From Flavobacterium sp. (GTDB lineage Bacteria; Bacteroidota; Bacteroidia; Flavobacteriales; Flavobacteriaceae), in the NCBI GenBank assembly GCA_012837155.1, contig CP051546.1, positions 2,106,140 through 2,170,139 of the forward strand: a stretch of DNA of 64,000 nucleotides, read 5' to 3'. Positions 2,475 through 27,155 of this stretch are shown here, piece by piece (position 1 is the first letter of the stretch; each line of letters opens with the position of its first letter). Both the position numbers and the translations under genes were made by a program. A model generated the notes under the pieces. It had not been told where the DNA came from, ran no database searches, and was given only the letters and a program-made list of their open reading frames with translations.

Positions 2475-2532
2475 GTTCAACACGAGTTTCATTGTTGGCT
2501 CTGCGAGCCCAACGAAACTCTAGCTGTTGGCA
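2475..2532 (+). other. attC-like site a, short form (58 bp)
   Basis: Outer boxes are GTTCAAC (2475) and GTTGGCA (2526). The inner arms GAGTTTCATTG and CAACGAAACTC fold around a small GGCTC/GAGCC hairpin, with unpaired bases as in attC sites. It is near-identical to the site at 9763. Confidence 0.8.
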
Positions 2533-2642
2533 GAAGATTTTTTTGTCAATTTCGAAAATTTAGTTATATGACAAATTATAAAGTTGATAAATTACAATGC
2601 AAATTACAGGTAGAGAAATTATTATTTTCTCTTTAGCAAATA

Positions 2643-2858
2643 TCATATTAAATTTTTCTTTGTCGTAATAATAACACAATAATGAAAATATAATAAATAA
2701 AAACAAGCTATTGAAAACACAAGTTTTGTAACCCCAATTTTTCTAATTTCTCGGATAATTTCTAAATCTTCCGAAAAATAAGGGAATAAAACAGTTAATA
2801 AACAAAGTAAATTAATTGAATTATTAACATAAGGAATTAATTTTTTCATTTGAATCAT
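2643..2858 (-). CDS. Small membrane protein, unknown
   Basis: This 71-residue frame starts MIQMKKLIPYV and has two hydrophobic stretches, about residues 12-27 and 45-62, so a two-pass inner-membrane protein is plausible. It lies in cassette 1, 58 bp downstream of and parallel to the frameshifted lipoprotein gene. I do not recognise a family. The second methionine (position 4) is an alternative start. Support is limited to length, hydrophobic pattern and matching strand. Confidence 0.4.
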   Translation of the reverse strand: MIQMKKLIPYVNNSINLLCLLTVLFPYFSEDLEIIREIRKIGVTKLVFSIACFYLLYFHYCVIITTKKNLI

Positions 2859-2916
2859 TTTTTTTTAAACAGGTTAAATTTTTCGAATTATAGATTTCGA
2901 GAATAGCTAAAATAAT

Positions 2917-3572
2917 TTATTCTGGGCATTGACTTCTACACTTTTCAAAAGTTCTTACACAGGCCGCCTGTGCTCTATAATGAGCTAACCATCCTGCAAA
3001 AGCAGTTGCAGCTGCACCAAGTGGATTTCCTGTGTAAAATGCTACTGCACTAACACTGAAAGTGTCTCTTAAGTTGGCATTAGACATTCTGTCGCAGTAA
3101 ACAGCGTCATTAATACAACCATTAAAACAATTTCCTTGAATTTTGGCTGTGTTTTTTGTTTTTTTAATAGATGTTGCAAATTTACTTTCTGTAATTTGAT
3201 TTAAAATTTCATCAAGTTCTCCTTTTTCAGATTTTAAAAGTATTAAAAAAACATTTCATTATCCTTAAATATCTTTAGATGCAATTCATTTAATTCAGTA
3301 TAACTTTTTGATGCACTTTCTAATGAACTGAATTTTGTTTTTCCAATATTTTCCTTTAAATACTTTTTAGTATTGATTTCACTTTGAAAAACACTATTAT
3401 TTTCAATTCCAGATTTATCTAAAAAATCATTGGCTTTGATTTCAAAACTTTTAAAATCTTCGGAATTTATCATTTTAAAATACTCGTTTTCTAAAGTTGT
3501 ATCCATAATTTGTTGGTCACGACTACAGGAAACTAAAAAAACGATTGTTAAAAACAAAACTAACTTTCTCAT
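2917..3572 (-). pseudogene. Lipoprotein with cysteine-rich C-terminus, one frameshift
   Basis: The first frame (3572-3243) begins MRKLVLFLTIVFLVSCSRDQ, a signal peptide with lipobox cysteine, so the product should be an exported lipoprotein. It stops after FKDNEMFF at a run of seven A. Shifting one base there opens a frame that continues EKGELDEILNQI, then CFNGCINDAVYCDRMS and CVRTFEKCRSQCPE, ending at 2917. The repeated cysteines and the glycine/alanine segment GNPLGAAATAFAGWLAHY look like a genuine C-terminal domain. I do not recognise the family. It is the main gene of cassette 1. The break is more likely a homopolymer error than real decay. Confidence 0.6.
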
Positions 3573-3779
3573 AATATAAATTTCTTCCCTTTTTGGAAAT
3601 GTGGACTACCACAGGACGATAACTTTAGGTACTATTTTAAATTGTTAGATTAAATTGTACCGCCCCGTTGGCATACTTTTGTTTTATTACCGTGTTAAAT
3701 GAATAACCGTTTCCTTCTTTTCTTGAATAAATCAAAGTTTTTCAAGTGTTTTTTCGGACAACGTTGGTCATAAATTTTC

Positions 3780-3912
3780 TGCCAACGTCCCGCCGCTTGG
3801 CGAGGTTGGGGACTAAATTAAGATTTAATTTTCGGTTGAGCACAATTTTCCAAGTACAAGACCAACTTTAAATTATGCCTAAAACCCCAATCTAGCCAAA
3901 CGGCTGTTATAG
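3780..3912 (+). other. attC-like site b (133 bp)
   Basis: Outer boxes are TGCCAAC and GTTATAG. Arms CGCCGCTTGGCGAGGTTGGGG and CCCCAATCTAGCCAAACGG pair imperfectly around a roughly 70-base loop containing TTTCGGTT and a CCAACTT motif shared with sites c, h and m. Confidence 0.8.
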
Positions 3913-3918
3913 CACGTA

Positions 3919-4644
3919 TTATGGCGTTTCGTTTGGCTCCCAATCATTATAGAAATTCCAAAACACATCGCCAACTTTCTTAATTTCAAATTCTAGTTCT
4001 TCTCTAACTTTATTTCTAAAATCTATTGTAAATATACCTTTGTTGTCACACATATTTATGAGTTTAATTTTTAAACTGAAATCAGATTGTGTTTTTTCGA
4101 GAAGAATGCCTTTGGCTCTACAATTTCCATTATAATAGAGTTTTTCTTGTTCATCGTCTATGAACGTTCTAAGATATTTAAAGGTCAAGGTATCACCAAC
4201 TTTGAATTTTATGAAAGTTTCATTATATTCTGCTTCAGTTCTCTTTCTTATTTCTTCCCAATATACTTTATACGGTTTGATTTGTTCATCCAACTTAATT
4301 TCTTTTTTGTTGAGCTTTCGATGAAATGATGTTATGATTATAGACGAAATGTCATCAAGAGCGTAAATTCCAATTTCATCAAATGATTTTTCCAGTTTTG
4401 GATTACCATGCCTTAACCAAACGTTCCGAATGAACATTCCATAGCTGAGATGTAAACTTGATACCGCAGTTCTTTCATCTTTGGATTTAAATGTTTGCTT
4501 TTCGGCATCAGTCCATTTATACTCCATATAATCTAAAGCATCATTTAAACTTTCAGGTAAATATTTTTCAGGATAGCTTTTCGGTTTTTCCTGTGAAAAT
4601 AGGACACCGTTAATTAAAAGAAATATGATTGGGAGCAGTTTCAT
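3919..4644 (-). CDS. DUF6794-like exported protein
   Basis: This 241-residue protein has an N-terminal signal peptide (MKLLPIIFLLINGVLFS). The following region contains LPESLNDALDYMEYKW, SYGMFIRNVWLRHG, FDEIGIYALDDISSIIIT and LDEQIKPYKVYWEE. That order of motifs fits the DUF6794 family as I remember it; function is unknown. The second half, with an FKVGDTLTFKYLRTF segment, looks like a separate beta domain. The gene fills cassette 2 almost completely: its stop is 6 bases from the left site and its ATG 9 bases from the right site. There is no room for a private promoter outside the palindromes. Confidence 0.75.
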   Translation of the reverse strand: MKLLPIIFLLINGVLFSQEKPKSYPEKYLPESLNDALDYMEYKWTDAEKQTFKSKDERTAVSSLHLSYGMFIRNVWLRHGNPKLEKSFDEIGIYALDDISSIIITSFHRKLNKKEIKLDEQIKPYKVYWEEIRKRTEAEYNETFIKFKVGDTLTFKYLRTFIDDEQEKLYYNGNCRAKGILLEKTQSDFSLKIKLINMCDNKGIFTIDFRNKVREELEFEIKKVGDVFWNFYNDWEPNETP

Positions 4645-4652
4645 AATATGTG

Positions 4653-4785
4653 CTATAACGTTTGGCCGCTTGGCGATGTGGCGGATTAAGGAAGCCTAGA
4701 CTTTCGGTTAATAACTGAACTTTCAGACACAAAACCAACTTCAAATTAAGCCTAAACCCGCCATATTGCCAAACGGCGGTTACAG
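4653..4785 (+). other. attC-like site c (133 bp)
   Basis: Outer boxes are CTATAAC and GTTACAG. Arms CCGCTTGGCGATGTGGCGG and CCGCCATATTGCCAAACGG pair. The loop carries the shared words AGCCTA, TTTCGGTTAA and ACAAAACCAACTTCAAAT. Confidence 0.85.
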
Positions 4786-4971
4786 GAAGCCTTTTTGGAT
4801 TTTTCACTTTTTTACACCTAGTTTTGGTTTACAATAGCAAGTTTTTTTTTCACTATTTCAATTTTTATAAAGGGAGTAGTTGGGAAAAAATTTTAAATTT
4901 TAATAAAAGTAGGTTTTAGTTGTTTAAACTCCACCTTTATTTTTGATTAACAGTCAAATCGTTCTAAAAGG

Positions 4972-5007
4972 AAAAAGGTGTTTGGGAGAATCACAAACAC
5001 CTTTTTA
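4972..5007 (-). terminator. Rho-independent terminator after type IX cargo gene
   Basis: AAAAAGGTGTTTG and CAAACACCTTTTT form a near-perfect stem with a loop of about 9 bases, 15 bases beyond the stop codon at 5022 in the direction of transcription. Confidence 0.8.
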
Positions 5008-5021
5008 TAGCTTTTATTTCT

Positions 5022-6629
5022 TTATTCTACAATGATCCGATGACTCTCGGTTTGACCATCTAAAATTATTTTGAGAATATAAACTCCCTTTGGTACGCCT
5101 TGAACACTAAAAGTAGTATCAATATTGCTAATTTCAATATTTTTAACAACAGTTCCGTTTATGTTTACAAGCTGTCCTTTATATGTCTGGCTTAAGGTGC
5201 TATAAGAGTTGTTCAACACAACATTTACAATGTCTTTTGATGGATTAGGATAGACCATAAATGTATTTTGTTCTTGTTCATCAATTATTTCTTTTTTGTT
5301 TTTACTTGCTAATCTTTGCAGTCCTCCGCCACTTCCGACAAAAGTTCTATTTACACTGGTAGTTCCACAACTACTTATTGCTGTTGCTTTCACTTGTGTT
5401 CTACAAGTGCTACTAGAATAAAGTAATCTAGCTGTTTTTCCTAATGGAAATAATCTGCCACAGTTTGTTGGATTAGTAGAAACGATTTCCCAAACAACAT
5501 TTGTAATATTTTGAGCATTAATATCGCTTAATTCTATACCACCTCCATTTGTGTAACTTAATCCTTGCAAAATTAAATCCATCCTACCACCTCCTGTTTG
5601 TTGTATTGCAATATCAAAATGTGGTTTTCCGACTCCTATCAGCTTTGTGATTGTTGTCTTCTGACCACAGCTATTTGTGATTTCAGCATTTAAATTGCAG
5701 GATCCAACCGATAATGCAGTAAGAGTTACTTGGGAATTTGAAGCTCCACTAACGGATGCTATTGATGGATTAGAACTACTCCAAGAAATAGTACTATTGG
5801 GATCGGGGTTGCCAATTGTGAAGGTTGAAGCTGTTTGTGTATTACAAAACAGATCGATTCCAGTAATTATTGCAGAGGTTGTAAATGGTACTATGTTTAC
5901 AGTACAGGTTTTTGTTGGTTGTGAAACTCCATTAATAAATGGATATACAGTTACATTTGATACTAATGAAGTTACCGAATTAGGAGTCAATGTAATAGAA
6001 TTTGTAGAACTTGCAACAAGTGACCAACCACTATAACTCCATTGGTACGTTACTGTAGAACCGCTAGGAATGTTGGCTGGACTAACAGTAAAAGTTCTTG
6101 CACTTGTGTCTCCACAAGAAAGGCTTAAATTTGTTGGAGAAAATGAGAAACTTGGCAAAAGAGTTTTTGTTATTGTGAAATTGCAAGTTGATCTATATTC
6201 TGTACCTCCGCTTGACTTAAAAACAACAAATAGAGTGCCACCAGAAGCATTAAAGTCGGCAGAATTTATCGAAAAACTTGCTGTTGTTGAATATGTGCCA
6301 TTACCACTTGAAGGTTGATTCCAAAATGTTTCTTGAATCTGTACCCAACTTTTTTCTACTCTCGAATCTGAAGAAGATTTTTGAGTATAAACACGCAAAT
6401 CACTTAAACCAACAACTTGACTGTTTGGCTTGCTTAAGTTTATTCCTAAATTTATTGAAGTACTGGTACTTGATGCTAAATCTATATTTCCGCAATTTGC
6501 TGCTGAAATTGTAGATTGACCATTGTTTGTATATTGCAAATTTTGCATACTTACTGATACTTGAGAATAAGTGCTAAAACTAATTAAAAGTATTGCAACA
6601 AATTGTAAAAACTGTATTTTGTTTTTCAT
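5022..6629 (-). CDS. Secreted Ig-like protein with type IX sorting domain
   Basis: This 535-residue protein starts with a signal peptide (MKNKIQFLQFVAILLISFSTYSQ). The middle, about residues 150-430, is serine/threonine-rich with repeated beta-sandwich-like segments (SLSCGDTSARTFTVSPANIPSG; SVSGASNSQVTLTALSVGSC). The last 80 residues contain FMVYPNPSKDIVNVVLNN and VPKGVYILKIILDGQ, the hallmark of a type A C-terminal domain sorted by the type IX secretion system. It is therefore likely exported to the cell surface. It forms a two-gene unit with the beta-barrel gene upstream (12 bp gap), both inside cassette 3. Cell-surface binding or adhesion is a guess. Confidence 0.85.
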   Translation of the reverse strand: MKNKIQFLQFVAILLISFSTYSQVSVSMQNLQYTNNGQSTISAANCGNIDLASSTSTSINLGINLSKPNSQVVGLSDLRVYTQKSSSDSRVEKSWVQIQETFWNQPSSGNGTYSTTASFSINSADFNASGGTLFVVFKSSGGTEYRSTCNFTITKTLLPSFSFSPTNLSLSCGDTSARTFTVSPANIPSGSTVTYQWSYSGWSLVASSTNSITLTPNSVTSLVSNVTVYPFINGVSQPTKTCTVNIVPFTTSAIITGIDLFCNTQTASTFTIGNPDPNSTISWSSSNPSIASVSGASNSQVTLTALSVGSCNLNAEITNSCGQKTTITKLIGVGKPHFDIAIQQTGGGRMDLILQGLSYTNGGGIELSDINAQNITNVVWEIVSTNPTNCGRLFPLGKTARLLYSSSTCRTQVKATAISSCGTTSVNRTFVGSGGGLQRLASKNKKEIIDEQEQNTFMVYPNPSKDIVNVVLNNSYSTLSQTYKGQLVNINGTVVKNIEISNIDTTFSVQGVPKGVYILKIILDGQTESHRIIVE

Positions 6630-6641
6630 CTTAATTGTTTT

Positions 6642-7211
6642 TTAAAAGATTATTATTTTTTTTTCTAAATGTATTTGAAAACCAATACCAACTGTAAAAT
6701 TATTAGATTTTACATCTGAATTAAACTTTGATGAATCATAATTAAGGGAGAGTTCGAGAGCAACGCTACTATTAAAAAAAATAGCTGTCCCTCCTTTAAG
6801 AGTATATCCACTGCTTTTATTTGACCCACCTGATTCGCTTTTACCTTTGCTAAAACCATAACTCGTCTGTAAAAAGGGGTTAATGATTTTTGCAGATTCT
6901 CTGAAATAATATCTCACAAAAGGCGAAATGCTATAACTGTGACTATTATTGTTAGCACCCGATGGGTTTGAGAAGTTAAAACCTACAGTCGTTCCAAGTG
7001 CAAAATTATCTACAATAAAATAGCCTAAATTTGGAGAAATAGTTAAAGCATTCCCAGTTTGAGTAGTTACAGTGTTATTGCTTTCAAATGTACTTTTATA
7101 ATTTGTAAAGTTTCCACTTCCACCTACCATCCAATTTCCTTTTGTAATTTGAGAATTTGCAGAAATAGTAAATAAAATTGTTGCGATAAAAAAGAGTTTA
7201 ATTGTTTTCAT
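6642..7211 (-). CDS. Outer-membrane beta-barrel protein
   Basis: I choose the start at 7211 (MKTIKLFFIATILFTISANSQ), which gives a clean signal peptide; the open frame extends further upstream but without one. The mature part, about 168 residues, alternates hydrophobic and polar residues and has the OmpA/porin-like pattern WMVGGSGNFTNYKS, LTISPNLGYFIVDNFALGTTVGF, SYSISPFVRYYF and YTLKGGTAIFF, ending with aromatic beta strands. This fits an eight-stranded outer-membrane barrel of the Bacteroidota beta-barrel group. It is the first gene of cassette 3, followed 12 bp later by the type IX cargo gene. Confidence 0.75.
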   Translation of the reverse strand: MKTIKLFFIATILFTISANSQITKGNWMVGGSGNFTNYKSTFESNNTVTTQTGNALTISPNLGYFIVDNFALGTTVGFNFSNPSGANNNSHSYSISPFVRYYFRESAKIINPFLQTSYGFSKGKSESGGSNKSSGYTLKGGTAIFFNSSVALELSLNYDSSKFNSDVKSNNFTVGIGFQIHLEKKIIIF

Positions 7212-7362
7212 AATTGTAATTGGTTTAAAAAATGTTAAATAAAGATAATTGTGTTTTCTTTTTGGTGGGCTATTGTCTTGCAGTAGCATTTTTTTAGTAA
7301 TTTCATAATGGCAAAACGTTTTTAAAGATTCCTTTTTAGCAGTTTTTTTGCGCAAAGGTTTC

Positions 7363-7495
7363 CTGTAACGTTCGAGTGCTTGCCGTTCGGTGGAAATTTC
7401 AAGACCGAAGATAACAAAAATTAATAAACATTAAATAAGCCGAAATATTTCGGACACAACCCAATCCTGCCACTGACGGCAAACACTTGTTGAAC
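7363..7495 (+). other. attC-like site d (133 bp)
   Basis: Outer boxes are CTGTAAC and GTTGAAC. Arms GAGTGCTTGCCGTTCGGTGG and CCTGCCACTGACGGCAAACACTT pair. Confidence 0.8.
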
Positions 7496-7559
7496 TAAAC
7501 CTTCGGTAGCGCTTTACTAGATTTAGTATCTTACGAAGATAATTAAAAAAACGTAAAGT

Positions 7560-8515
7560 ATGACTACAAAAAAAAGAATGCAGAAGATTTAAGAGAAAAC
7601 AAAATACTGAATCAAGCCAAACGGGAAGTTCCAGGATTTGAGGGGCTTTTAAATCGTTTTGAGCGAACGGTTTCTGTTTTAGGCAGAAGCCAAAGTACTT
7701 TTAACAATTATTCCCGTCACGTGGCGGCAATCTCGCTCTATTTTGGTAAAATCCCGACCGAACTAGATCCCGAACAAGTGCAGGACTATTTGTTTTACCA
7801 ACAGAAAAAATCCAAAACACCCTCTCAAACTTATTTTAAACACTGCGTTTATGGCCTTCGGTTTTTACTTAAATCCGAAGGATTACCTTATGAATACCTG
7901 CGATTGCCCTCGATAAAACACGAGAAAAAACTTCCCGTGGTACTTAGTAAGGAAGAAGTTTGGGCTATGCTTCAAAGTGCCAAACTACTCAAACACAAAA
8001 TTCTCATTGGTTTACTTTATGGCTGTGGACTTCGTTGTATGGAAGCCAGAAATGTTCGTTTACAGGATTTGGATTTCGATAGAAAACAACTCAAAGTCGT
8101 TCAAGGCAAAGGTAAAAAAGACCGCTATGTTCCGCTTTCGGTGCATTTAATCCGAGGTTTAAAAAAATATATCGAAGCCGAAAAATCCCAAGATTATCTC
8201 TTCAATGGTCAACCTATCGAAAGGGCTGGAGGCGATTTTGATTCACGGTATTCCCAGCGTGGCGTGCAATGGGCAGTTAGACAAGTTGCCAAAGCGGCAG
8301 GTGTGAAAAAAGAAGTACATACCCACACGCTTCGGCACAGCTATGCCACGCATTTGCTCGAAGACGGTATGGATATTATGACCCTTAAAGATCTTTTAGG
8401 ACATCAAAATATCGAAACCACGATGGAATATCTGCACATTGCCCAACTCGAGAGTCAGCGCATTTTTAGTCCACTCGATACTCTTTTTGCAAAATGCAGC
8501 CGCTCTTTGAAGTAG
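7560..8515 (+). CDS. Tyrosine recombinase of IS91-type element (copy 2), one frameshift near the start
   Basis: The long open frame begins at 7721, but homology-like sequence continues upstream: EVPGFEGLLNRFERTVSVLGRS and STFNNYSRHV are in the same frame. An ATG at 7560 would join it if the run of eight A at about 7567 were nine. The full protein would be about 318 residues. The N-terminal SAM-like core-binding domain (to about residue 130) is followed by the catalytic domain with YGCGLRCMEAR, GKGKKDR, HTLRHSYATH, LGHQN and TTMEYLH. The C-terminal tail FSPLDTLF resembles the tail of integron integrases. It overlaps the transposase by 22 bases. Confidence 0.8.
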
Positions 8516-9608
8516 CCGATGTACTGCGAAAAATTGGTTCCAAAATCGAAAACTATGGATTGAATACTTGGCAACTCCGCACGCTTTCTGCCATAAAAAA
8601 ATGCAGAACCGCAGAACTAGGTGGTCATATAGATACTTGCGATAGTTGTGGCAATCTCTCCATAAGCTATAACTCTTGCCGCAATCGGCATTGCCCAAAG
8701 TGTCAGGGTAAAAACAGGGAAGATTGGATAGCCAAAAGAGAAACGGAACTCTTACCAGTACCTTATTTCCACGTAGTTTTCACTTTGCCCGAGGCAATCA
8801 ATTCTTTGGCGATGCACCAGTCCAAAATCGTGTACGATACCTTGTTTGAAGCCTCTTGGGAAACGCTACAACAATTTGGAAAATCCAAAGAAATGCAAAT
8901 GGGAATGATTGCCGTTTTGCACACTTGGGGGCAGCAATTGAGTTTGCATCCACACCTGCATTGCATTGTGCCAGGAGGCGGAGTGGATAAAAATGGAATT
9001 TGGAAAAACAGCCGACTCGATGGCAAGTTTCTGTTTTCGGTAAAGGCATTATCCAAGGTTTTTAGGGCTAAATATTGTGAAAAGCTAAAAACAAAAATCC
9101 GATTGGTTATGAGCAAATCCGTCAGGATTTATGGCAAAAACCGTGGGTGGTATTTGCCAAGAAACCTTTTGGAAATCCGAAATCGGTGGTGGAATATTTA
9201 GGAAGATATACCCACAAAATTGCTATTAGCAACCATCGAATCAAAGATATTAGTGACCAAAACGTCACTTTTGATTATAAGAATTATCGAATGGCGGGAG
9301 TCAAAAAACAAATGACACTCACCCATCAGGAGTTTATCAGGCGGTTTGCCTTGCATATTTTGCCCAAAGGTTTTGTAAAAATCCGCCATCATGGTTTTTT
9401 GAGTAGCACTTGGAAACGTCAAAAATTGAGGCTTTTACAGGAGAAACTTCTAGTTAAGGTCTTGGAAAAAGCAGAAAAGAAACCCTTTTTACCAAAGTGC
9501 CCTTGTTGTAAAACGGGTAATTTGCATCGAATTGTGGTTTTTGACCAGCGTGGTCCGCCTGCTTGGTATCTTGGCAGTGGCCAAAACCCGATTCCCCGTG
9601 AAAGTTAA
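8494..9608 (+). pseudogene. IS91 family transposase, copy 2, frameshifted
   Basis: Same protein as at 1179-2294, but copy 2 has one A fewer in the run at about 9097 (ACAAAAATCC versus ACAAAAAATCC). The frame closes after about 235 residues and reopens at about 9147 with VFAKKPFGNPKSVVEYLGRYTHK. The HUH motif is in the first piece and the tyrosine region in the second. If the missing base is real, this copy makes no active enzyme on its own. If it is a homopolymer error, both copies are intact. Confidence 0.85.
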
Positions 9609-9684
9609 TTTTATGGGTAAGGGATTTTATGCCCATAAGTGAAGGAAAACACAAGAAAACCAAACTTAAAACTACTCCAAAAAA

Positions 9685-9705
9685 AAGAGGACTATAAATC
9701 CTCTT
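9685..9705 (-). terminator. Hairpin terminator, second version
   Basis: AAGAGGA and TCCTCTT form a 7-bp stem with an A run on the plus-strand left side, so it acts as a T-tailed hairpin on the minus strand. It corresponds in position to 2374-2393 but differs in sequence, and keeps pairing through a compensated pair (C/G to A/T). Confidence 0.55.
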
Positions 9706-9762
9706 GAAATGATTCTAACTTATTTATTGAAAAACCCATAGGGATAGATGTAGAGCGGTTCC

Positions 9763-9820
9763 GTTCAACACGAGTTTCATTGTTGGCTCTGCGAGCCCAA
9801 CGAAACTCTAGCTGTTAGCG
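9763..9820 (+). other. attC-like site e, short form (58 bp)
   Basis: Outer boxes are GTTCAAC and GTTAGCG. The inner sequence is the same as site a. Confidence 0.8.
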
Positions 9821-9844
9821 GTTCGTTGTTTTTTCTGTCGTGTA

Positions 9845-10432
9845 TTATAGTATGTCATTGTTCAGATTAATAGTATTTGTCAATTCCACCAAATCCCGAA
9901 ATAAGTTTATTGTCCTTTGTTTTTGAATAAAGTTATTCAGTCGTTTAGTAAATTCTTCTGGTCGTTTTCTTGCACTTTCTATATATGCAATTCGTATTCG
10001 TTTGTATGGCTCTGAAAATTTTGTATAGTTATTCCAACTTTCCTTATCTTTTTTAATTTCGTCTAAAATATCCAAAGGAAAAACATACTCTTTTGAAATA
10101 ATTTCTTGAACTGTTTTAAGAAATGAATGATGAATTAGATTGTTTTCGGATAACCATTTCAGTCGTTCTTTATTAGGTTGTGAATAACTGCTCTTGGTTT
10201 GTCGAGGAGTAAATCGCTGAATTGTGTGGTCTTTGTCAAGGGTTTTATTTATGCTGTCTATCCAACCAAAACATAGGGCTTCTTCAACTGCATCGTTGTA
10301 TTGAATGCGTTGCTCACCTGTTGATTTTTTAGCATAAACCAACCAAATTTCTTTCTCTGTGTTGAAATTCTGTTGAAGCCAATTTCTCCATTCAGTTCTT
10401 GTTTTAATGTTCAGTGTTTTTTCAGTTGTCAA
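9845..10432 (-). CDS. YdeI/OmpD-associated (OmdA-like) family protein
   Basis: This 195-residue protein has the motifs EWRNWLQQNF, EIWLVYAKKSTG, YNDAVEEALCFGWIDSINK, IQRFTPRQTKSSYS and, near the C-terminus, SARKRPEEF. They match the YdeI/OmpD-associated group, often annotated as bacteriocin-protection-like; molecular role unknown. The start is a TTG at 10430-10432 that overlaps the stop of the upstream hydrolase (ATTGA), which points to translational coupling. Second gene of cassette 5. Its stop lies 24 bases from the left palindrome. Confidence 0.75.
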   Translation of the reverse strand: MTTEKTLNIKTRTEWRNWLQQNFNTEKEIWLVYAKKSTGEQRIQYNDAVEEALCFGWIDSINKTLDKDHTIQRFTPRQTKSSYSQPNKERLKWLSENNLIHHSFLKTVQEIISKEYVFPLDILDEIKKDKESWNNYTKFSEPYKRIRIAYIESARKRPEEFTKRLNNFIQKQRTINLFRDLVELTNTINLNNDIL

Positions 10433-17650: not shown

Positions 17651-20600
17651 TTATTTCAAATGGTCGTTTAATATTTCCCATATTTCAGTATTAACACATT
17701 TAATTTCTCCAAGTTGTCCTTCAATATTTTTCTTGTCTACTAGAAGAACTTCTGATTTCTTCTTTAGTTCTTCTGTCGGTATCATTTTTAAAAGTCTTGC
17801 CGCTAAAACTTTGTCAACCTTTGCCAATGCACATAAACCTGCTTTCAATTGATAAAATGTAAGTGAATGTATGTCTCTTTCTAGTCTTGGAATGGAAGCA
17901 CTAAGCAAAGTATTTACTACTTCTTTATTTATCTTGCTAAGTCTGTAAAGTGCATCAGCAAATTTCGCAAACTGAATTTCTCCATTATTTGCACTTACAA
18001 GGCTTTCGGAATATGTAGCAATAATTTTATTTGCTATTTCTTCATTAATGTTAAAAGCAATACTTACGCTATTTATAAAATTTTCTATGTCTGCTTCTTG
18101 AATTTTATTTTTGAAAACATTGTGTGCAAAAAGATTATTCAATAGGTCAATAGTTTTTTCATTGTCAAGATTATATAAAGGTTTGATAGAGTTGAAAATT
18201 GGTTGAATCCTGAATTTCCTTACGAGACATTTGCGAATTATGGTGATGTTATCAATTAAGTTGTAAATCCTTTTTGCATTAACTAAATCAACATTTTTTA
18301 AGTACAATAAAATAGATGGTAAATCAGTAATTTCCGTATTACTGTCATTAATTGTTTTTATTAGTTTTTCGTCTGGAATTACTTTTACTAATTTTTACCA
18401 TACTTAGGGTCAATTTCATTTATTGCATTTACTAACTGAACCGAATGTTTAATATTTGAACTTTTGACCCTACCTTCAATAATGTCAAGATTGACCTTTT
18501 TTAATAATTCTTGACCTTCTTCTTTTACATCAAGTTGGGAAAAAAGCAGATAAAAGGTAAACAAATCTACTGTTGTTATAGTAGAGGAATTCAGTTTATT
18601 TATTACAAATCCCTTTTCTAATGTATGACGAATTAAGTTTTGAGATTTTGTAGTCTCAACTTTCTTAAACTCCTTGAGAATATGGCCAAATGCAGTCAAA
18701 GGTTTGTCTTCAAATAGGTTTGATAAAAATTCAATCTCTAATTCCTGAAATATTTCTTTTGCAATAGACTGGTCAATATCATATAAACGAGATAAGCCGA
18801 TTCCTATTTGTTCTACAGTTGCTTGCTTGGATTTTCTTTTAAGAACTTTAATATCAATTGAAGACAATATTTCGGAAGTTGTTGCAAAATCAATCTCTTT
18901 TAATTCACTTAGTGTTTTCGTGATGTAATCAAACTTTTGATAATGAATTTTTGCTGAAACTTTTTTTATGTCAACAGTTTTAAGAATCGCTGTTGCGAAC
19001 TCGGGCTTTACTTTTTTAATTTCTGCAAGTGAATTGCCATAAATACCAAAATGAATGTCGGAATTGAATTTTTTCTTCCATTCATCTACGGTTAAAACAT
19101 TAATTGCCTTCCCTCTTAATTCGTTGTTGGGAAGTAGTCTAATTGTTAATGTGAGGCTGTTTAAAGATGCTTTTATAAAAACATCTTTTAGTTCAGCAGG
19201 TTTAAAAGGAGCTAAGACATTCTTGTTTTTTAAATCATTGAAATTGTTCTTATGTGTTTCAATGTATGATATAGCCGAAGCGTTTTTTGTACCTCTTTTT
19301 AATATTTCTACCAAGTTACTATTACTGAAATAAAGGTTATTGCAATAATCCTCAAAGTTACGCTTGGCAAAAATTCTGATTAACTGAATTAAGTTAACCA
19401 ATTGGTCTGAATCCATTTGTTTGGAATCATAAACGTATTTGAAAAACTGTTTCTTAACGGTTTCACTGGACAAAATCTTGTTAAAAAGGTTAATATTATC
19501 AGATATTCCGATATTGTAAAGGAAACTATAAATATTATCTACAAAGCCGTCAGAGTCGCCTATTAATTCATTCAAATAATCCTCAATATTTTTTAAATAA
19601 AGGGCGTTTCTATCATTCTTATATCTTGCATTTAGTGTTGCGTTGGCTCTAAAAATGGAATCGAGTAATAACCTTGCAAACATTGAGTGCATAAAAGAAT
19701 GAAAATCGTTTTCATTCTTAAATAAAAGACCTTTTTGTTTTGAGGATTCAATTTGATGAGGGTCTGCCAAAAATTCTATTTCATAAGCGTATAAAGTAGC
19801 AAACTGATGAATTTTATTTAATTCATTCGGATTAAGACCGTTCAAATATTTATTGTAAATATGGATTTCAATTGTTTTTGCGGTAATTTCTGATAATTGC
19901 ACATTGTTTTCTGACCAATACTGCAACATCCAAGATAGTTTGTAAAGATTGCTTTGTGTGTTTTCTATTGCCTTTTTAATGTCTCCAATTTCACGTTGTA
20001 AGCCTTGACTTTCAAGATAGGATTTACAGTTTGAAATAATTCCAATTGATTTTTTGTAAATATGTTGAGGGGTATTGAAGGATTCTAATTTTATATTACT
20101 TCCTTCAAGTTGCTTAAAAATATCAATATTGTTTTGAATATCCCTTCTAACATCTGCACTTAGAAAGCGAGAAGTGATAATAAACTTGAAAGTCGGAAAT
20201 TCTTCTTCTAATGAAAGTAATTCTGCCCCAAAAGTCAGATTCAAGTGTATATCTTCAATTATGAAAACTAAATTTTCTCTATCGTTAAGTTTATTAAGGT
20301 CTCCCTTGAACTTGTCAAAACCAAGACTTGGTGAAATGTTCAAATAAAAAACCTCAAATCCATTATCTGTTAATTGTTTGGATATTTTTAATGTGGATAT
20401 TGTTTTACCTGTGGATGGATATCCAGTTAATAGAAAATAATTTTCAGAATCAGCTTTTATTCTTTCAACACAGTCTCTAATTTGTTCACTTTCCTCTGGC
20501 AAAAAATAGTAATAGTTCGTTTCTAATAAATCAAAAGAGGGTAGAACAAATTTTTCCGCTTCCGTTCTAAATTTTGACTTTGCAGATTTTAAAATTTCTA

Positions 20601-21102
20601 GCTTTTTTAAGCTATCTAAAACAGAATCTATTTTTTTATCAATTATTTGAAGATTCTTTGAGATGTCAAAAATTCTTTCTTTGTAATTCTCTTCTACAAA
20701 TAGCTTTTTCAAGTATTCATTGCTATTTGCATTGGTTTTGAAGAGTTCGTAAAAACTTTCTAATTGCTCATTGTTAGGCTCAATTATGTTTGGATTAGTC
20801 TTTAACTCATTTTGCAACTTTTCTTTAGAATGTTTTTCCTCGTTGAAAAGAACATACATTGAATAATGCTCCAAAAGAATCTGTGAATGGTAAAATGGAA
20901 ATTTGTTTCCGTCTTTTATTGCAGGATTTTTCTTTTCAAATTCTTCAATAGTTTTATAAATTATTCCTGTGAGTTCCTTGCCATAGCTGTCTTTTGGAAA
21001 TACCTTTTGGGATATTTTTTCAATACCTTTCTGGGTAGTAAAATCAATAATTTGACCCACTAAATATGAAACGGCTGTTGATGTGGCTAATTCTACTAAC
21101 AT
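17651..21102 (-). pseudogene. STAND-like NTPase with helical repeats, one frameshift
   Basis: The main frame (904 residues) has an N-terminal helical segment, then a P-loop NTPase: Walker A LLTGYPSTGKT near residue 225, Walker B LVFIIEDIH near 280 and an FIITSR sensor-like strand. The rest is helical repeats (for example SIAKEIFQELEIEFLSNL). After a one-base shift at about 18390 the frame continues with EKLIKTIND and IYNLIDNITI to a stop at 17651, giving about 1,150 residues. The architecture, sensor repeats behind a STAND-type ATPase, is common in phage-defence proteins. It follows the helicase gene with a 3-base gap, in the same direction, inside cassette 14. Confidence 0.7.
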
Positions 21103-21105
21103 TTA

Positions 21106-23604
21106 CTAATCTTCATTTACAAAACTTTCCTTGTATTCCTTTGAACTAATAACTGTGTCGTACAAACCAACGTCCTCGCCTTCGTGCTTGTTAATTCCGA
21201 TGTAAACCAAACTTGCATCTTCGTAGCGTTTAAATTTGTAAACAGCATCATTCATTAATCCACTATTGAAAACGCCAAGGCTAACCAACAATTCAAAGTC
21301 TTTTACATTCAATCCTGTTACCTTTTTAAAAAGTCCGGGTTCGAGTTGTGTAATTACATCCTTCAAACTTCTTTCTCGGTAGTCTGTCAGGTACATAAAT
21401 ACTGGAACACGAGTCGCAAACTTGATTAGCTTTTCTTGAATTTGTCGTCTTAGGTTTTTGTATTCCTTTTCTTCTTCTGTTAATTCCTTCTTTTCTTTTT
21501 TAGAAAGTTCTCTTTCATTTGCTTCACTCTTTGTTTTCTTAACGGATTCCGATTTATTGATAATGGTTTCAATGTCTTGATTTAAATTACGGAAACCCTC
21601 AATGCTCATTAATGCTTTCATAGCATCTGCATTGTTCATTAGGCGTTGCAATGTGTTATTGTCAACATTTACAAGCAATGCACTTTCCCAACGTCTTGCC
21701 AAAAGGGTGGCAGTTGTTCCACTCATTGCCATATCCAAAATTCCAGCAGCATCAACCTGTTTCATTGAACTTCCGTCATAAGCTAACACAGGTAAGAAGT
21801 GAATAAATTCCTCAACTTTCTTTTCAGGATTGGATTCGCCTACATTTAAACGGCAACTGTAATCAGCAATTTGTCGCAATGCTCTGTCTGGAGCAAAATC
21901 AAAAACATAGCATTCTTGTTTAATGATTTCTTCTTTGTTTGGCGATTTGCTATCAGGATTTTTAATTGTCCAAGGAGTTTGCACTCTGAAAGCCGCTTGA
22001 AAATAGGTTTCAGGACTTGAAGAATTACGCAACATAAAAATTCCTGTCCAAGGTTTTACCGAAACGCCAGTTGTGAGTTTGCCACAAGAAAGTGTAATTG
22101 ATTTTGTTTGTAATGGATTCTCCATTGCATCTTGAACTGGTGGCAATGCTTCAACACCAATTCCTGCACTTGTTCCTGCTGCCACAACTACAGTATAATC
22201 GTGATAGAATTTATTTTGCTTTTGTGCAATCAAATTACTCATTGCGTGGCAAGATGCTACTGTTGGTAAAAACCAAAATGTATGTGAAAGCACATTTAAT
22301 AATGGGGCGTGTGAAAATGGCAATGGTGGTTTTTTTTGCACCTAATTTTAAGTGGTCAATGGTTGTTTCGGAAAACGAACCACGTATTAAGTCCAACCAT
22401 TTTTGAACTTCATTTTCGTATTTGAATTTTGCTTTTTTACCCTCTCCGTCAGCAGAGAAAAATACATTCAAATCAAATTCGTTAAACTCACCTTTCATTG
22501 CTATTTCACGAATAGAATCGGGCAATTGATATGTAAGCATTACCATTCTTGGCAATGAAGCGTAAGGGTTTGGATTTCCTTTCCAATTTTCTTTTGCTTT
22601 TTGTTCGTCTGAATAAGTCCAGTTATAAATTTGTTCTTCTATAAATTCGCCTGATGCAATGGCTCTAAAAGGTGTACCCGATAAATACAAATATGAATTG
22701 GTTGTAATTGGCATATTTCCTTCATCGAAATAGTCCATTCCTTCACCTTCGCCAAATTCCAATTCTTTTTTTCCTTCCGCCTCAAAAAGGTCTTTAGCAT
22801 TTTCACGCCAAGCACCATAATGATATTCGTCAAATACTACGCAATCCCAATTTGTGGCGTGAACCCATTCGTTTCTTGCTTTAATTCCACCTGCTTCGTT
22901 TTTGCCTAAGTAATCTTGAAAAGAACCAAAGCAAACAAACGGTTTCTTTTTGTCGGCATCTTTAAAGTTTAAAACCGTTTCGTGAAATGAACTGCCAACC
23001 TTTAAAGTCAATATGTGTTTGTAAATCTTCGTCCCAAGCACTTTGAACAGCAGGCTTAAAGGTTAGTACTAATATTTTAGACCAACCCATTTTCTTTGCC
23101 AACTGGTAAGTAGCAAAAGTTTTTCCGAATCGCATTTTTGCATTCCAAAGAAAGTGAGGGGTTTTGTTTTTGTTTTCCTTTTTGAAACTTTTAAAATACT
23201 GAATGGTTTTGTCAACTGCTTCCACTTGTTCTGGTCGCATTACAAAATCAAGTGTTCGATTGTCTTCGTTTTTATACCGCTTTTAATTTCGATTAGTGCG
23301 GATTTAATTTCTTTCAAAGTACATTTAAACCATTCGCCTTGAGGATTTTTTATTTTTTTCTTTCTTAGTAATCTATGAACATCTTTATCTATAAATGCAG
23401 AGCCATCTTTGCTCATCGCAGATTCTTCAAGAAGAATTTTGTATTTAATTCCTGCTGTTTTAGTTTGTTCATCAATCCTTTTTCGGATGCACGAACTGTA
23501 TAACCAACTTTTAATAATCCTATATGCGTTGGTACGCCAATCAATTCATAAACATAAATTGTTGGGTTTGCTTCTGGTCGTTGTGGGAAAAATTTATTGC
23601 TCAT
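21106..23604 (-). pseudogene. T5orf172/GIY-YIG domain plus SF2 helicase, restriction-type, frameshifts
   Basis: Reconstructed from several overlapping frames. The start MSNKFFPQRPEANPTIYVYE with VPTHIGLLKVGYTVR looks like a T5orf172 (GIY-YIG-like) nuclease domain. Then come EWFKCTLKEIKSALIEIK and a superfamily 2 helicase: MRPEQVEAVDKT, Walker A AKMRFGKTFATYQL, DExH box VVFDEYHYGAW, LSGTPFRA and the C-terminal lobe ITLSCGKLTTGVSVKPW with ETYFQAAFRVQ. Total is about 830 residues. It probably acts as the translocating/cutting subunit of a restriction-like system with the methylase genes upstream. It overlaps the next gene by about 10 bases. The frameshifts (near 22,300, 23,000 and 23,400) look like sequence errors. 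Confidence 0.75.
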
Positions 23605-25144
23605 TTTCTATTTCCGTTGGACGAACCATTGATTCTATAAATTCAATTTCTTCGTTAGTTAACTTATATTTTTTATAAAGTTTTTCATCTGTCCAAGTCT
23701 CTTCAAAATCTTGAATTGGAACAAATTGATAAACCTTTTTCATAGCATTTTGTGTATTTTTTATTAATGAAACAAGGAAATGGAAAAACTTGGTTTGGGT
23801 ATATGCTACAACACTTTGAGCTGTTTTCTTTTTAGCGTATGGACCAATTACCAAATATGTTTCCGTACAACAAGAGTTAGGACTTATAATAAAAGGATTA
23901 AGCCAGTCCTTATCCATATTACCAATGCCCCATGCTTTTGGTATCAAAATTTTATACTCATCAATCCAACCAATATTTTTTTGAATAGTATCTTTTTTAA
24001 TATAGCCTAATCCTTCTTTCTTCCATCCATTGTAATAAAATTCTACACCATCCTTAAAGGAAGTTTTTTTGAAAGTTGGTTTTACACGTTTGTAACTATT
24101 ATTTTCTCGAACATCAAAACCAAAGGGGTCATTTGCACTTATAATATTTGCGAAACTGCTTTCCTTTAGAGACTGGACTTTTCTTAAAATTGAAATTGCT
24201 TCGTTGTATCTTACAAAGGTTTCTGTGTTTTTTTCTAACAATTGTCTTTCTGATATAGAAATATTTTTATTGCCATCGTGAGTGTGAATTTTACAAAGAC
24301 CTTTATTGTCTCTATCCCACAGGAAATAACAGACACCGCCTTTAATCTCTACTCCTGGAAAACAATCAGATGCATTTAAAAAATCGTGGATTATCCTAAT
24401 ACGAGTATCTTTTAACATTTCATCTCTAAACTCATCTAAACCCCTTCCGCCCGAAAACCAACGAGATGGGATAACCATAGTCAAATATCTTGGATTCAAT
24501 TTTTTCGCTTGATGAATAAACTTTTGGTAAATAGGCATTGCACTTGAACCAGTGCCACCTCCATCGTTTAATTGATAAGGCGGATTTCCAACGATTACAT
24601 CGAATTTCATATTCTTAAATATTTTTATTGTTATGTCTTTGTGAATGAAAGGATAAGCGTATGTTTCTAAAGCATCTTCACGGTCGTAAACCTCTTGGCT
24701 TGCTCCGCAATAACTACACTTGCCACTTACCCAAGTATGTTGCAGTCGTTCATAAACTATGTTGCCTTGTTCGTTTTTAAATTCATTGCAAACAGAGTAT
24801 TTTCCGTTAGCCGTTTTAGAACAATAAACACTTCTGCGTGAAAGCAAAGAAGTCAGTTCAGTAATGGCTATGCCATACAATTGTGTTGTGTAAATATGAT
24901 TGATGCGTTTTTGCTTGTCTGGAATTTGTTTTTCCAAACCTATCATTAAGCGTTTCGCAATTTCTCTTAGAAAAACGCCTGATTTACTCACAGGGTCAAG
25001 AAATTTTGCATCCTTATTTTCCCAAATTTCTTTTGGTAGTAAGTCCAATATTTGGTTAACCAAATTCGGGGGTGTAAATACCTCGTCATTGCTCAAATTG
25101 GCAAGGCAAGAAAGCACATCAGGGTTATAATTCGTTTGTATCAT
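23594..25144 (-). CDS. Eco57I-type adenine methyltransferase, NPPY subunit
   Basis: I prefer the ATG at 25144 (MIQTNYNPDVLSCLANLSND); a TTG nine bases upstream is possible. The protein has 516 residues: EVFTPPNLVNQILDLLP, a degenerate SAM motif I (LDPVSKSGVFLREI), a zinc-binding-like C-x2-C pair in SGKCSYCGAS, and the catalytic motif IVGNPPYQLND near residue 200, typical of N6-adenine methyltransferases. The C-terminal half is probably target recognition. It overlaps the upstream short methylase by about 20 bases and the helicase downstream, giving a tightly coupled cassette operon. Confidence 0.8.
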   Translation of the reverse strand: MIQTNYNPDVLSCLANLSNDEVFTPPNLVNQILDLLPKEIWENKDAKFLDPVSKSGVFLREIAKRLMIGLEKQIPDKQKRINHIYTTQLYGIAITELTSLLSRRSVYCSKTANGKYSVCNEFKNEQGNIVYERLQHTWVSGKCSYCGASQEVYDREDALETYAYPFIHKDITIKIFKNMKFDVIVGNPPYQLNDGGGTGSSAMPIYQKFIHQAKKLNPRYLTMVIPSRWFSGGRGLDEFRDEMLKDTRIRIIHDFLNASDCFPGVEIKGGVCYFLWDRDNKGLCKIHTHDGNKNISISERQLLEKNTETFVRYNEAISILRKVQSLKESSFANIISANDPFGFDVRENNSYKRVKPTFKKTSFKDGVEFYYNGWKKEGLGYIKKDTIQKNIGWIDEYKILIPKAWGIGNMDKDWLNPFIISPNSCCTETYLVIGPYAKKKTAQSVVAYTQTKFFHFLVSLIKNTQNAMKKVYQFVPIQDFEETWTDEKLYKKYKLTNEEIEFIESMVRPTEIENEQ

Positions 25145-25810
25145 CCTCGCCAAGTTTTAAAAAATGTGTCAATGGAAAATCACCAACTGGTGTTGGAATA
25201 AATGCTTTGTCGCCCAAGTCAGAGAACAAATTCAGTCCTTCCATAGGTTGGCTTTGCAATAAATTAATGCATAGTGTAATCACGTCTTTTAATCATACTG
25301 CCGTTTACGGCAGACCATTCCGAAAATACAATAGGGTCGGCATTTTCGTCTGGTGTTCTTAAATCCAAAGCATCGCCCCAAAGTATATTTTTGCTTAAAA
25401 TAAATTCTGCTGACCTTAAAAAATCAGACTTAGTTCTTTGTAGTTCTTTTGATAGTAATGTGTAAATATCCCCAATAGTCTGTCTCGGCAGGTTTGAACA
25501 TTGTCTTGTAAAATGTCAACACCATAAATGCTCGATAATGCAAGTATAGCGTAACGTTCGTATTCAATTTGGTTTTTAGAGTAGCGTTGTTCAATAATAG
25601 CCAATTTTCTTTTTAGAATTTCAACTAAAAAATTCCCTGTCCCACAAGCAGGCTCTAAAAAACGTGAATCAATTCTTTCGGTCTCTTGTTTTACAAGGTC
25701 AAGCATAGCGTTAACCTCACGTTGAGCAGTAAATACTTCTCCGTGGTCAGTAACCCGTTTTCTTGATTTACTTGGTCTTCGTTATGTATTTCTTCTGTCA
25801 ATTCGTTCAT
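25125..25810 (-). pseudogene. Short DNA methyltransferase-like protein, SAM-binding part, frameshifts
   Basis: Reconstructed from the ATG at 25810 (MNELTEEIHNEDQVNQ) through RVTDHGEVFTAQREVNAMLD, the SAM motif I FLEPACGTGNFLVEIL, GVDILQDNV and ILWGDALDLRTPDE, to a stop at 25125. The total is about 227 residues with two or three frameshifts. It has a canonical motif I but I see no NPPY catalytic motif, whereas the next gene has NPPY and a degenerate motif I. It is the first gene of the defence operon in cassette 14. It may be a partner subunit rather than a fragment. Confidence 0.65.
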
Positions 25811-26107
25811 TATTTTATTTATACTCTCAGTCTGCTAATTTACATTATTATGTTGGTGCGTTGGCTAAAAAGTGGCTCTTTTGGTTTTGCCGAAGGGTCG
25901 GCTTTGTGTGTCGGGGCAAAACCAAATGTGCCACTTGTGCGGCTGGCTAAAATTGTTTTTAAAAAATGCGGGTCGGCAAAAAAAATAAAACACGAAGCGT
26001 TGGGCTGTCGTGTCGGAAAAAAGTCCGCTGTTAAGTTTATATGTCGTCCTGATGTTTCGATAATTGTCTGTCAGTTTAATGGTTGTTGTGTCGGTCTTTA
26101 CGCTTGC
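25811..26107. other. Right non-coding end of cassette 14
   Basis: About 297 bp, upstream of the methylase operon, must hold its promoter. From 25850 on it is G/T-biased on the plus strand with repeated GTCGGC, GTGTCGG and GCGTTGG words like those at 17420-17650. No ORF is supported. Confidence 0.4.
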
Positions 26108-26239
26108 CTATAACGTTCCCGCGCCAGAAGCAGTCGCGGCTTGGCGACCGAGTTTTCTCCACTTTGGAGAAAACGAAATTAGGAAAATAAAACGAACAAT
26201 GAACCGAAAATCAGCGATTGCTTTTGACGCGTGTTGGCA
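26108..26239 (+). other. attC-like site o (132 bp)
   Basis: Outer boxes are CTATAAC and GTTGGCA. Arms CGCGCCAGAAGCAGTCGC and GCGATTGCTTTTGACGCG pair. An inner TTTTCTCC/GGAGAAAA hairpin lies in the loop. Confidence 0.85.
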
Positions 26240-26253
26240 GATGCCTTTCTTAT

Positions 26254-27022
26254 TTAGATTCTATTTTTCATAAATGGTTTCGTACTGTTTATAAAATAAT
26301 TACTTAACCCATTCTTGCTTTCAATTTTTATAAAATCTACAAAATCTGGAGTTTTTAAAAACTCTTTAACAGTAAATCCAGCTTCATTAATTAAATTTTG
26401 GAAATCATTTTCAGCATCTATTCCAAAAATATAGTGCGGTGGTTCTCCACTTGCAGGATCAAAAATCCAACCTAAATATGCTTTATTTACATTTGGCCTA
26501 TTTTCAAATAACACTTTTAGAGAATTTATTATTTCTGTTGGATATACACTAGGTTGACCAATTTGTATTTCAGTATCATTTTTAATTGTCAATTGTTGGT
26601 GATTTTCCGAAATAATTGTTCCGTCTAAAATTTTTTCAACTTCTATTGGTAGAAGTTCTTTGCTAAGTCAGAATATGGATTTAGAATAAAAGTTGTTCCT
26701 TTTGCTATTTCAAATAAGTTCGACGCTTTCATTTGAAGAAAGCGGACTTGCTCTTTTACAATACCTTTGTCAAATATTCTATCAGTTGTTGTAAAAATTG
26801 GCATCACTCCATTTTCAAAAGTAAAAATGTTAACATTTGTATTTTCTTTTAAAACTTGAGTTCCATTTTCAAAATCAGATTTTTGGGTAATAACAATTAA
26901 ATCTTCATTGGCAATTCTATTATAAAACTCTGCTCTGAAAGAAGGCTCATTAGCTGCTTTCTGTAAAGCATTTCTATACTTAATTCACTTTTTTTTGGCT
27001 TAAATATGTCAAATATTCCCAT
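26254..27022 (-). pseudogene. SseB-like protein, frameshifts
   Basis: Reconstructed from the ATG at 27022 (MGIFDIFKPKKSELSIE) through KAANEPSFRAEFYNRIANED, VLKENTNVNIFTFENG, MPIFTTTDRIFD and FILNPYSDLAKN, then after a shift PIEVEKILDGTI and the C-terminal domain VNKAYLGWIFDPASGEPPHY. The N-terminal part resembles SseB (enhanced serine sensitivity) N-domains and the end the SseB C-domain. Role unknown. It is the sole gene of cassette 15. Its stop is 14 bases from site o and its start 40 bases from the last site. Confidence 0.65.
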
Positions 27023-27061
27023 TAATTGGATTTGTTATGGTTTACGGTTTTTCAAGGTTTC

Positions 27062-27155
27062 TGCCAACTAGTATATAGGTCTGATAAAACCAGACCTATC
27101 ACTCCAAATTAGGGTGGATAGGTCTGACTGCAATCAGACTTTATTAGTGTTCAAA
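27062..27155 (+). other. Terminal attC-like site p (94 bp), next to recombinase
   Basis: TGCCAAC pairs with the start of cassette 15 (TTGGCAG). Outer arms AACTAGTATATAGGTCTGAT and ATCAGACTTTATTAGTGTT pair. Inside are a second inverted pair (ATAGGTCTG/CAGACCTAT) and a CACTCC/GGGTG stem, so AGGTCTGA occurs four times in alternating orientation. It ends 15 bases from the recombinase stop. It may be the array's last attC or an attI-like docking site, and could also serve as the recombinase terminator. Confidence 0.6.

Follow-up and report, generated by a model that had tools for sequence, protein, structure and literature searches.

A probable integron-like cassette array with long attC-like sites beside a XerA-like tyrosine recombinase gene in a Flavobacterium chromosome

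How did a run of gene sets parted by large palindromes come to be assembled in the chromosome of a Flavobacterium strain, and which enzyme put it together? The stretch analysed here, called the window, is 64,000 nt long (positions 2106140-2170139 of contig CP051546.1; the genome, of 3.1 Mb, is a single contig and 86% complete), and a preliminary description of it had taken sixteen imperfect palindromes with AAC...GTT ends for the sites of an integron-like array. Our analysis indicates that the region is most probably an integron-like cassette array lying beside a gene for a XerA-like tyrosine recombinase, in which each cassette has an attC-like site of about 125 bp.

All sixteen palindromes were found again between positions 2479 and 27151, eleven of them 124-126 bp long, four 50 bp and one 86 bp. 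The earlier sizes, almost all 132-134 or 58 bp, are recovered when the flanks are counted, by which the eleven become 132-134 bp and the four 58 bp; one of these 58-bp sites has TAC in place of AAC. From the eleven 124-126 bp sites we made a covariance model, R1, which finds 28 sites in the whole genome at an expectation value (E) <=0.1 (best 8e-27), including all eleven modelled, with 17 of the 28 outside the array. The long sites can be aligned at near-fixed distances from each end: on one arm AAC is followed by about 5 unpaired bases, a 4-bp stem, a C that mostly stands opposite A or G, and a 12-bp stem; the loop measures about 80 bases, and the opposite arm has a single base ahead of GTT. 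The internal loop is thus lopsided (about 5 vs 1 nt), and this is conserved, as is the C facing A or G. In integrons the choice of strand is set by extrahelical bases of attC, for which these two features would be the candidates here. In the inner stem 14 of the 16 pairs change on both sides among the eleven sites, and 96.7% of the stem cells pair, a share that drops to 66.8% in 500 shuffles and to 34-48% when the arms are slid. For 137 sites from other genomes and one plasmid, found with R1 yet unused in building it (13 of 150 sites fell outside the length or end filter), 91% of the pairs form; mixing arms from different sites lowers this to 56%, and sliding them to 37-50%. Both the covariance model and the covariation therefore exceed chance, and by covariation the sites are, like attC, imperfect palindromes whose fold is conserved over sequence; single folds give a mixed picture. 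When ten of the eleven sites were folded as single-stranded DNA, as had been proposed, the long stem was the best fold for most, the exceptions being taken up below. A gathering scan of Rfam returned no match, and a tRNA scan found none. At R1 pair 32/27 a G-T wobble occupies 116 of the 137 sites, and it may be a mark of strand or orientation.

The words that flank these sites argue for cassettes. In all twelve cassette intervals 6-7 of the 7 variable bases beyond GTT match between the two ends of the same interval, a value reached by 7 of 132 cross-pairings and by 0 of 20,000 permutations. Plain palindromes would have matching flank words at one site; the two ends of one site, however, match at 1-5 of 7 positions in the eleven window sites, and it is the interval ends that match. 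Across all arrays (178 sites, from the window plus 22 other loci, leaving out 8 of 175 R1 hits that were cut, partial or reverse-strand echoes and 12 of the 178 sites that lack AAC...GTT), at least 6 of 7 bases match in 125 of 140 neighbouring pairs less than 5 kb apart, as against 5 of 166 for ends of the same site and about 3% of random pairs. Fifteen intervals fall below 6 of 7; among the 14 printed, five open with the insertion sequence (IS) word GTTGAACTAA, seven are gaps of more than 1.4 kb, inside which a site may have been missed, one contains undetermined bases (Ns) and one, of 717 bp, scores 4. The proposal that every interval opens and closes with a complementary word of its own thus holds for 12 of 12 cassettes and fails for an IS91-like element and its two shorter derivatives in the array, whose own ends match at 4-5 of 7. 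This element, which comprises a tyrosine recombinase and an IS91 transposase and ends in a 58-bp hairpin, accounts with its derivatives for the four 58-bp sites, and the 86-bp palindrome is attI-like. The count is therefore 12 cassettes, set apart by the eleven 124-126 bp sites, and not at least 15 as first put forward. The features are given below from the recombinase gene leftward, with own-end matches (ends) and R1 scores.

27171-27749, minus strand: tyrosine recombinase, catalytic part, 192 aa (PF00589, 1.3e-41; R, K, H-x-x-R, H and Y motifs present)
27746-28213, minus strand: N-terminal part of the same recombinase, 155 aa, about 76 residues ahead of a SAM-like domain (PF13495, 9.4e-12)
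27066-27170, minus strand: attI-like landing site (86-bp palindrome), from recombinase stop to first cassette, with inverted repeats, ending in TATATACTA before GTT (13 aligned rows)
26233-27068, minus strand: cassette c12, first from the recombinase, with SseB_C-domain gene 26254-26592 (PF14581; ends 6/7)
26112-26235, minus strand: attC-like site of c12 (R1 108 bits)
17413-26114, minus strand: cassette c11, 8.7 kb, with a 904-aa ATPase-like gene, several broken restriction/helicase-like frames and an Eco57I-type methylase (ends 6/7)
17292-17415, minus strand: attC-like site of c11 (R1 107.6 bits)
16542-17294, minus strand: cassette c10, ends similar to c7 (ends 6/7)
16419-16544, minus strand: attC-like site of c10 (R1 122 bits)
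14352-16421, minus strand: cassette c9, with an epimerase-like gene (two frames), a DUF1330 gene and an HxlR gene on the plus strand (Pfam; ends 6/7)
14016-14354, plus strand: short IS91-like derivative with 58-bp site, between c9 and the site of c9
13895-14018, minus strand: attC-like site of c9, parted from c9 by the short derivative (R1 116.9 bits)
13545-13897, minus strand: cassette c8, whose sole open reading frame (ORF), 82 aa with TTG start, is on the opposite strand (13648-13896) (ends 7/7)
13209-13547, plus strand: second short IS91-like derivative with 58-bp site (TAC for AAC)
13087-13211, minus strand: attC-like site of c8, parted from c8 by the short derivative (R1 125.9 bits)
12369-13089, minus strand: cassette c7 (ends 6/7)
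12248-12371, minus strand: attC-like site of c7 (R1 125.4 bits)
12009-12250, minus strand: cassette c6, 242 bp, with a 65-aa ORF on the opposite strand (ends 7/7)
11888-12011, minus strand: attC-like site of c6 (R1 95 bits)
11308-11890, minus strand: cassette c5, with 174-aa gene 11324-11848 (ends 7/7)
11186-11310, minus strand: attC-like site of c5 (R1 106.4 bits)
9814-11188, minus strand: cassette c4, with OmdA-domain and alpha/beta-hydrolase genes (Pfam; ends 6/7)
7489-9816, plus strand: IS91-like element, with tyrosine recombinase 7721-8515, transposase in two frames 8494-9608 and 58-bp site 9767-9816 (NF033538, PF00589, PF04986)
7367-7491, minus strand: attC-like site of c4, parted from c4 by the IS91-like element (R1 96.7 bits)
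4779-7369, minus strand: cassette c3, with Por secretion-tail protein and outer-membrane beta-barrel genes (Pfam; ends 7/7)
4657-4781, minus strand: attC-like site of c3 (R1 130 bits)
3906-4659, minus strand: cassette c2, with a DUF6794 gene (Pfam; ends 7/7)
3784-3908, minus strand: attC-like site of c2 (R1 119.9 bits)
2526-3786, minus strand: cassette c1, the last; no long attC-like site found beyond it (no R1 match in locus L049) (ends 7/7)
610-2531, plus strand: second IS91-like copy, truncated by 436 bases at its start and bearing 58-bp site 2479-2528 (97% identical to the copy at 7489, counted from position 437 of the latter onward)

On the minus strand the cassettes read leftward, codirectional with the recombinase gene, and the sites lie on the downstream side of the genes. 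The genome also has two single cassettes at other places (L058 and L060), both with just one site and that on the same side, from which it follows that a cassette and one site make up the unit, which reads on the minus strand and starts beside the recombinase gene. Initially the sites had been assigned to the right-hand (plus) side of each interval, on the grounds that the right-hand sites of c7 and c10 are similar and that the 58-bp site of the IS lies on the right; this assignment was dropped in view of the two single cassettes, the repeated units described below and the gene direction, and because the recombinase end has no long site. Over the cassettes of all arrays, the interiors of which have a median of about 700 bp, the longest ORF points toward its own site in 107 of 125 and away from it in 7, while 11 have no ORF of 60 aa.

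Comparison with relatives indicates that cassettes move as units. One relative (G045) has 40 sites genome-wide, about 35 of them in one array, in which site-plus-gene units recur with 0-3 mismatches between unrelated flanks: units of about 720, 761-777 and 747-754 bp are each present three times, a 652-bp unit twice. In six of ten comparisons of these units the matching block stops no more than 5 bases from AAC at both ends; owing to the similarity of the adjoining words, the block in the other four runs on past one end for 9 to about 18 bases. In the genome of the window a single cassette stands between epimerase and UDP-glucose dehydrogenase genes, where the gap is 913 bp, and in the 14 assessable relatives the same gap measures 20-108 bp (11 of them) or 204, 328 and 785 bp (the other three). 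No R1 site was found at these loci in the 19 relatives compared (20 loci, own included, of 265 genomes with a match; 5 of the 19 were not assessable).

New cassettes appear to be inserted at an attI-type site next to the recombinase gene. From the stop codon of this gene to the first cassette lie about 105 bp, with inverted repeats and the end TATATACWA. When 13 such landing sites were aligned, the mean pairwise identity was 85% in the last 10 nt, 100% in GTT, and 47, 36 and 30% afterwards. The set had left out 24 of 42 sequences at first, those without the gene-end motif sought, and then five more rows, of which L107 was misplaced and L106, L128, L129 and L132 lacked the searched core; L128 and L129 have a landing-site variant in which CGA precedes GTT, and L132 is without GTT. 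Two Chryseobacterium plasmids, NZ_CP041688 of strain SNU WT5 and NZ_CP094530 of C. oryzae, have a backbone that is 86-90% identical next to the recombinase, a recombinase gene 96% identical over 1041 nt and a matching landing site, whereas past GTT the identity falls to 22% in the next 60 nt and each has different genes. The comparison of loci for gain or loss at GTT, suggested in the preliminary description, was thus borne out between species and between two related plasmids, where differences begin at GTT; together with the own-end match and the repeated units, it favours the proposed capture by site-specific recombination, with ends split between neighbours. The SNU WT5 plasmid also has, at L171 31679-31781, a second landing-site copy with 93% identity to that of the C. 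oryzae plasmid.

The catalytic part of the recombinase at the array end (gene 28213-27171) is 76-87% identical to its eleven closest homologues in 28 genomes; intact close homologues are 347 aa long, and an alignment of 24 proteins shows no variation at the catalytic residues. A database search returned at least 8000 proteins at E <=1e-20, and in the best 120 of these every source name that bears a genus is Flavobacterium, one more being Flavobacteriaceae. An R1 site lies beside the homologue, within the fetched flank, in 19 of 39 loci, in all 19 on the 3' side and in none on the 5' side. The alignment and tree of these proteins exclude five loci for want of a usable frame, three extractions that were wrong or cut, and 12 near-duplicates. 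Loci L112, L149 and L150 have frames of about 590-610 aa that end in a recombinase of this type and form a clade of their own.

Since the IS91-like element brings a tyrosine recombinase of its own, this enzyme might move the cassettes, with the gene at 27171-28213 as a passenger, a reading that we hold to be improbable. The IS91 transposase model NF033538 (cut-off 125 bits) gives 432 bits for the unbroken gene 1179-2294 and 279 and 136 bits for the two pieces of the other copy, all above the cut-off; further copies of the element or its derivatives lie at loci L050, L051, L054, L057 and L059. Among copies of the IS or its derivatives with an intact left end in the loci fetched, 10 of 12 begin directly at the GTT of an R1 site (L052 and L053 do not), the 58-bp end is a small hairpin site too, and on the C. 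oryzae plasmid an IS91-like pair stands downstream of the recombinase, twice, all of which would suit the element as mover. However, the attI-like stretch adjoins the other recombinase, the sites lie on a fixed side of the homologues of the latter, and the IS-type genes of the window are inside the array and at its far end. The element likely uses R1 sites as insertion targets. Elements that target attC sites include IS1111-attC and group II introns; the IS91-like element resembles them in lying at the sites here and differs in having its own recombinase and a hairpin end. IS110-family and group II intron elements are kinds known from IntI arrays; in the array of the SNU WT5 plasmid (L171 20299-24081) a transposase of the IS110 family and a reverse transcriptase of a group II intron are annotated alongside the cassette genes.

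Could the array instead be an ordinary integron with a diverged IntI integrase? The architecture is the same, with a recombinase gene and an adjacent landing site, sites downstream of genes, split ends, single cassettes elsewhere and arrays without a detected recombinase. Moreover, the IntI model TIGR02249 gives intact homologues 197.6-203.8 bits, and the VchIntI structure 2a3v comes second in a fold search, with a slightly higher query template modelling (TM) score than the first-ranked XerA structure 5hxy (0.51 vs 0.46). We nevertheless consider this reading very unlikely. All five intact homologues stay below the 265-bit cut-off of TIGR02249, and the window's own two pieces score 163.5 and 27.1 bits. 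The IntI additional domain is absent: the spacing from KxxR to HxxRH is 58-59 aa in 34 homologues as against 100 in 17 IntI, and the comparison with 2a3v gives 22 vs 64 aa. In the tree, IntI form one clade with 100/100 support that excludes the recombinases of the window type, although IntI join the IS-type recombinases on flagged long branches, and the deeper order of IntI and window-type recombinases is unsure. No R1 site was found at 20 IntI loci. The core likewise differs, since GTTR is found in 125 of 125 cassettes of all arrays, with AAC/GTT kept, while GTTRRRY occurs in only 2 of 125, so that the TTRRRY/RYYYAAC core named earlier did not hold. The sites differ from those of integrons also in their length of 124-126 bp, the 4-bp plus 12-bp stem, the C facing A or G and the internal loop of about 5 vs 1 nt. 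TIGR02249 exceeds its cut-off in 105 of 395 genomes of the phylum, of which one is assigned to the class of the window and none to its order or genus; of the rest, 20 same-genus genomes (own included) are listed without a TIGR02249 match and 270 more are unlisted.

By sequence the best structural matches of the recombinase are XerA 5hxy and the archaeal Xer 4a8e, followed by 2a3v, and the fold search, run with a model of middling quality (predicted local distance difference test 80.7, predicted TM score 0.51), ranks them 5hxy, 2a3v, 4a8e. The XerA model NF040815 (cut-off 220 bits) gives 220.7 bits for one intact homologue and 203-218 for the other four of five. Unlike XerA and archaeal Xer, the window-type recombinase has about 75 extra N-terminal residues and sits beside cassette arrays. 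That host XerC/XerD join DNA at the hairpins, as for CTX phage, appears highly improbable: Xer-like homologues are present in the genomes searched and the family is related, but no R1 site was found at 13 Xer loci, and a separate recombinase is tied to the landing site. Static intergenic repeats, for which the genome sites outside the array would speak, can be practically dismissed, as ends match per interval and not per palindrome, whole units are repeated in G045 and the plasmids differ from GTT onward.

For the integron-like array beside the XerA-like recombinase we propose the following course. Circular gene cassettes are likely to be inserted at the attI-like site, each bringing an attC-like site of about 125 bp whose predicted hairpin is conserved more than its sequence. 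The array-end recombinase would do the joining, at or next to the boundary between G and TT, and the cassettes would pass through a circular form; because pairing is conserved while sequence is not, the site would be used as a folded single strand. In its working the system is very likely an integron. It is not one by the published definition, which calls for an integrase with the IntI additional domain around patch III (PMC9668308): the recombinase lacks that domain and scores below the cut-off, and the sites have a different core. The earlier label thus survives as integron-like in working and not as integron proper.

Several points weigh against this interpretation. The recombinase gene of the window is broken into two reading frames, so the copy may be dead, or the break may be an assembly error. 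The evidence for recombination is comparative, and PMC4792948 describes XerCD, which lack the I2 domain, as unadapted to single-stranded substrates. The single-site folding, right for most of the ten sites, did not hold for 13885-14028, where the best fold differs from the long stem, for 11176-11320, where it is partly different, or for 7357-7501, where it is no better than shuffles (25 of 200 as good). The 90 bases before the last ten of the landing site are only 42-53% identical (ungapped), 20 of 39 homologue loci have no site within the short flank, the arrays are accompanied by two distinct recombinase clades in the tree, and the C. oryzae plasmid has one R1 site vs six on the SNU WT5 plasmid. 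Finally, sites and recombinase are only loosely associated in their occurrence, many site-bearing genomes having no detectable recombinase of this family: by the thresholds given below, 29 of 61 same-genus genomes have both, 23 have sites only, 3 the recombinase only and 6 neither. As this association is weak, we do not use it as support.

At least one site at 1e-5, under strict filters, occurs in 60 of 100 genomes (own included), namely 52 of 61 of the same genus and 8 of 39 outside it. A recombinase homologue, counted at >=50% identity over the query or at E <=1e-50, is present in 32 of the 61 (own included), with short stop-bearing remnants in G017 and G036 uncounted. We lean, with some reserve, toward a broader view, in which Flavobacteriales hold a second integron lineage: a XerA-like recombinase without an I2-type domain would capture genes via folded attC-like hairpins, would run chromosomal arrays of about 35 sites as well as plasmid arrays, and would have supplied cassettes, blaVEB among them, to other phyla. 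If this is true, integron-type gene capture exists, largely unnoticed, in a second enzyme lineage, and a common gene-capture route of Flavobacteriales has been missed by searches tuned to IntI. A cassette system with such a recombinase would allow a direct test: strand choice and one-sided exchange either are achieved in another way or do not depend on the I2 domain. PMC4792948 accounts for single-strand attC recombination by a coevolution of extrahelical bases with the I2 domain of IntI, and frames the beginning of this process as a chicken-and-egg question.

Integrons as such are on record in the phylum: IntegronFinder 2.0 gives Salinibacter ruber as its complete integron in Bacteroidetes (PMC9024848), and Bacteroidota is listed with the phyla that have integrons (PMC8618304). 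Among the literature matches listed, no title or opening of an abstract points to arrays of this kind in Flavobacterium, subscription papers and preprints lying outside the scope of the search. IntI of the Treponema type has the additional domain. Treponema-type integrons, whose orientation is atypical, are like the present array in that the recombinase gene is co-directional with the cassette genes, and unlike it in being described with intI (PMC3607928).

A link to a resistance cassette is suggested by the beta-lactamase gene blaVEB. Full-length R1 matches, weak and in the expected orientation, follow blaVEB-1 on two plasmids (L214 and L215, 1603-1747; 19.4 bits, E 0.0013 for 8.5 kb). Passages in two publications give the blaVEB site as 133 bp and poor for IntI1 (PMC3518468), and report identical 135-bp repeats around blaVEB in some isolates (PMC3668210). 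These resemblances suggest that blaVEB may have come from an array of the window type, and such arrays are a possible source of its unusually long, poorly recombining cassette site. On an Aeromonas plasmid (L213, 1601-2464) a truncated recombinase homologue, 49% identical over the aligned part, stands directly before blaVEB-3; the stretch after it is landing-site-like, with GTTAGCGG, and no R1 site was found on this blaVEB-3 stretch.

As to cassette contents, only two pairs of cassettes common to different genomes passed 40% coverage, with 77% and 69% identity. We considered whether c11 and the ATPase-methylase-helicase set of the C. oryzae plasmid are one cassette, and rejected this, since tblastn gave no match at 1e-5; PADLOC reported for c11 only restriction-modification-like and single weak other matches. 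Genes seemingly split into two or more frames lie at 14384-15450, 21106-23240 and 8494-9608, as does the recombinase gene in its own place, and these split frames are possibly uncorrected assembly errors.

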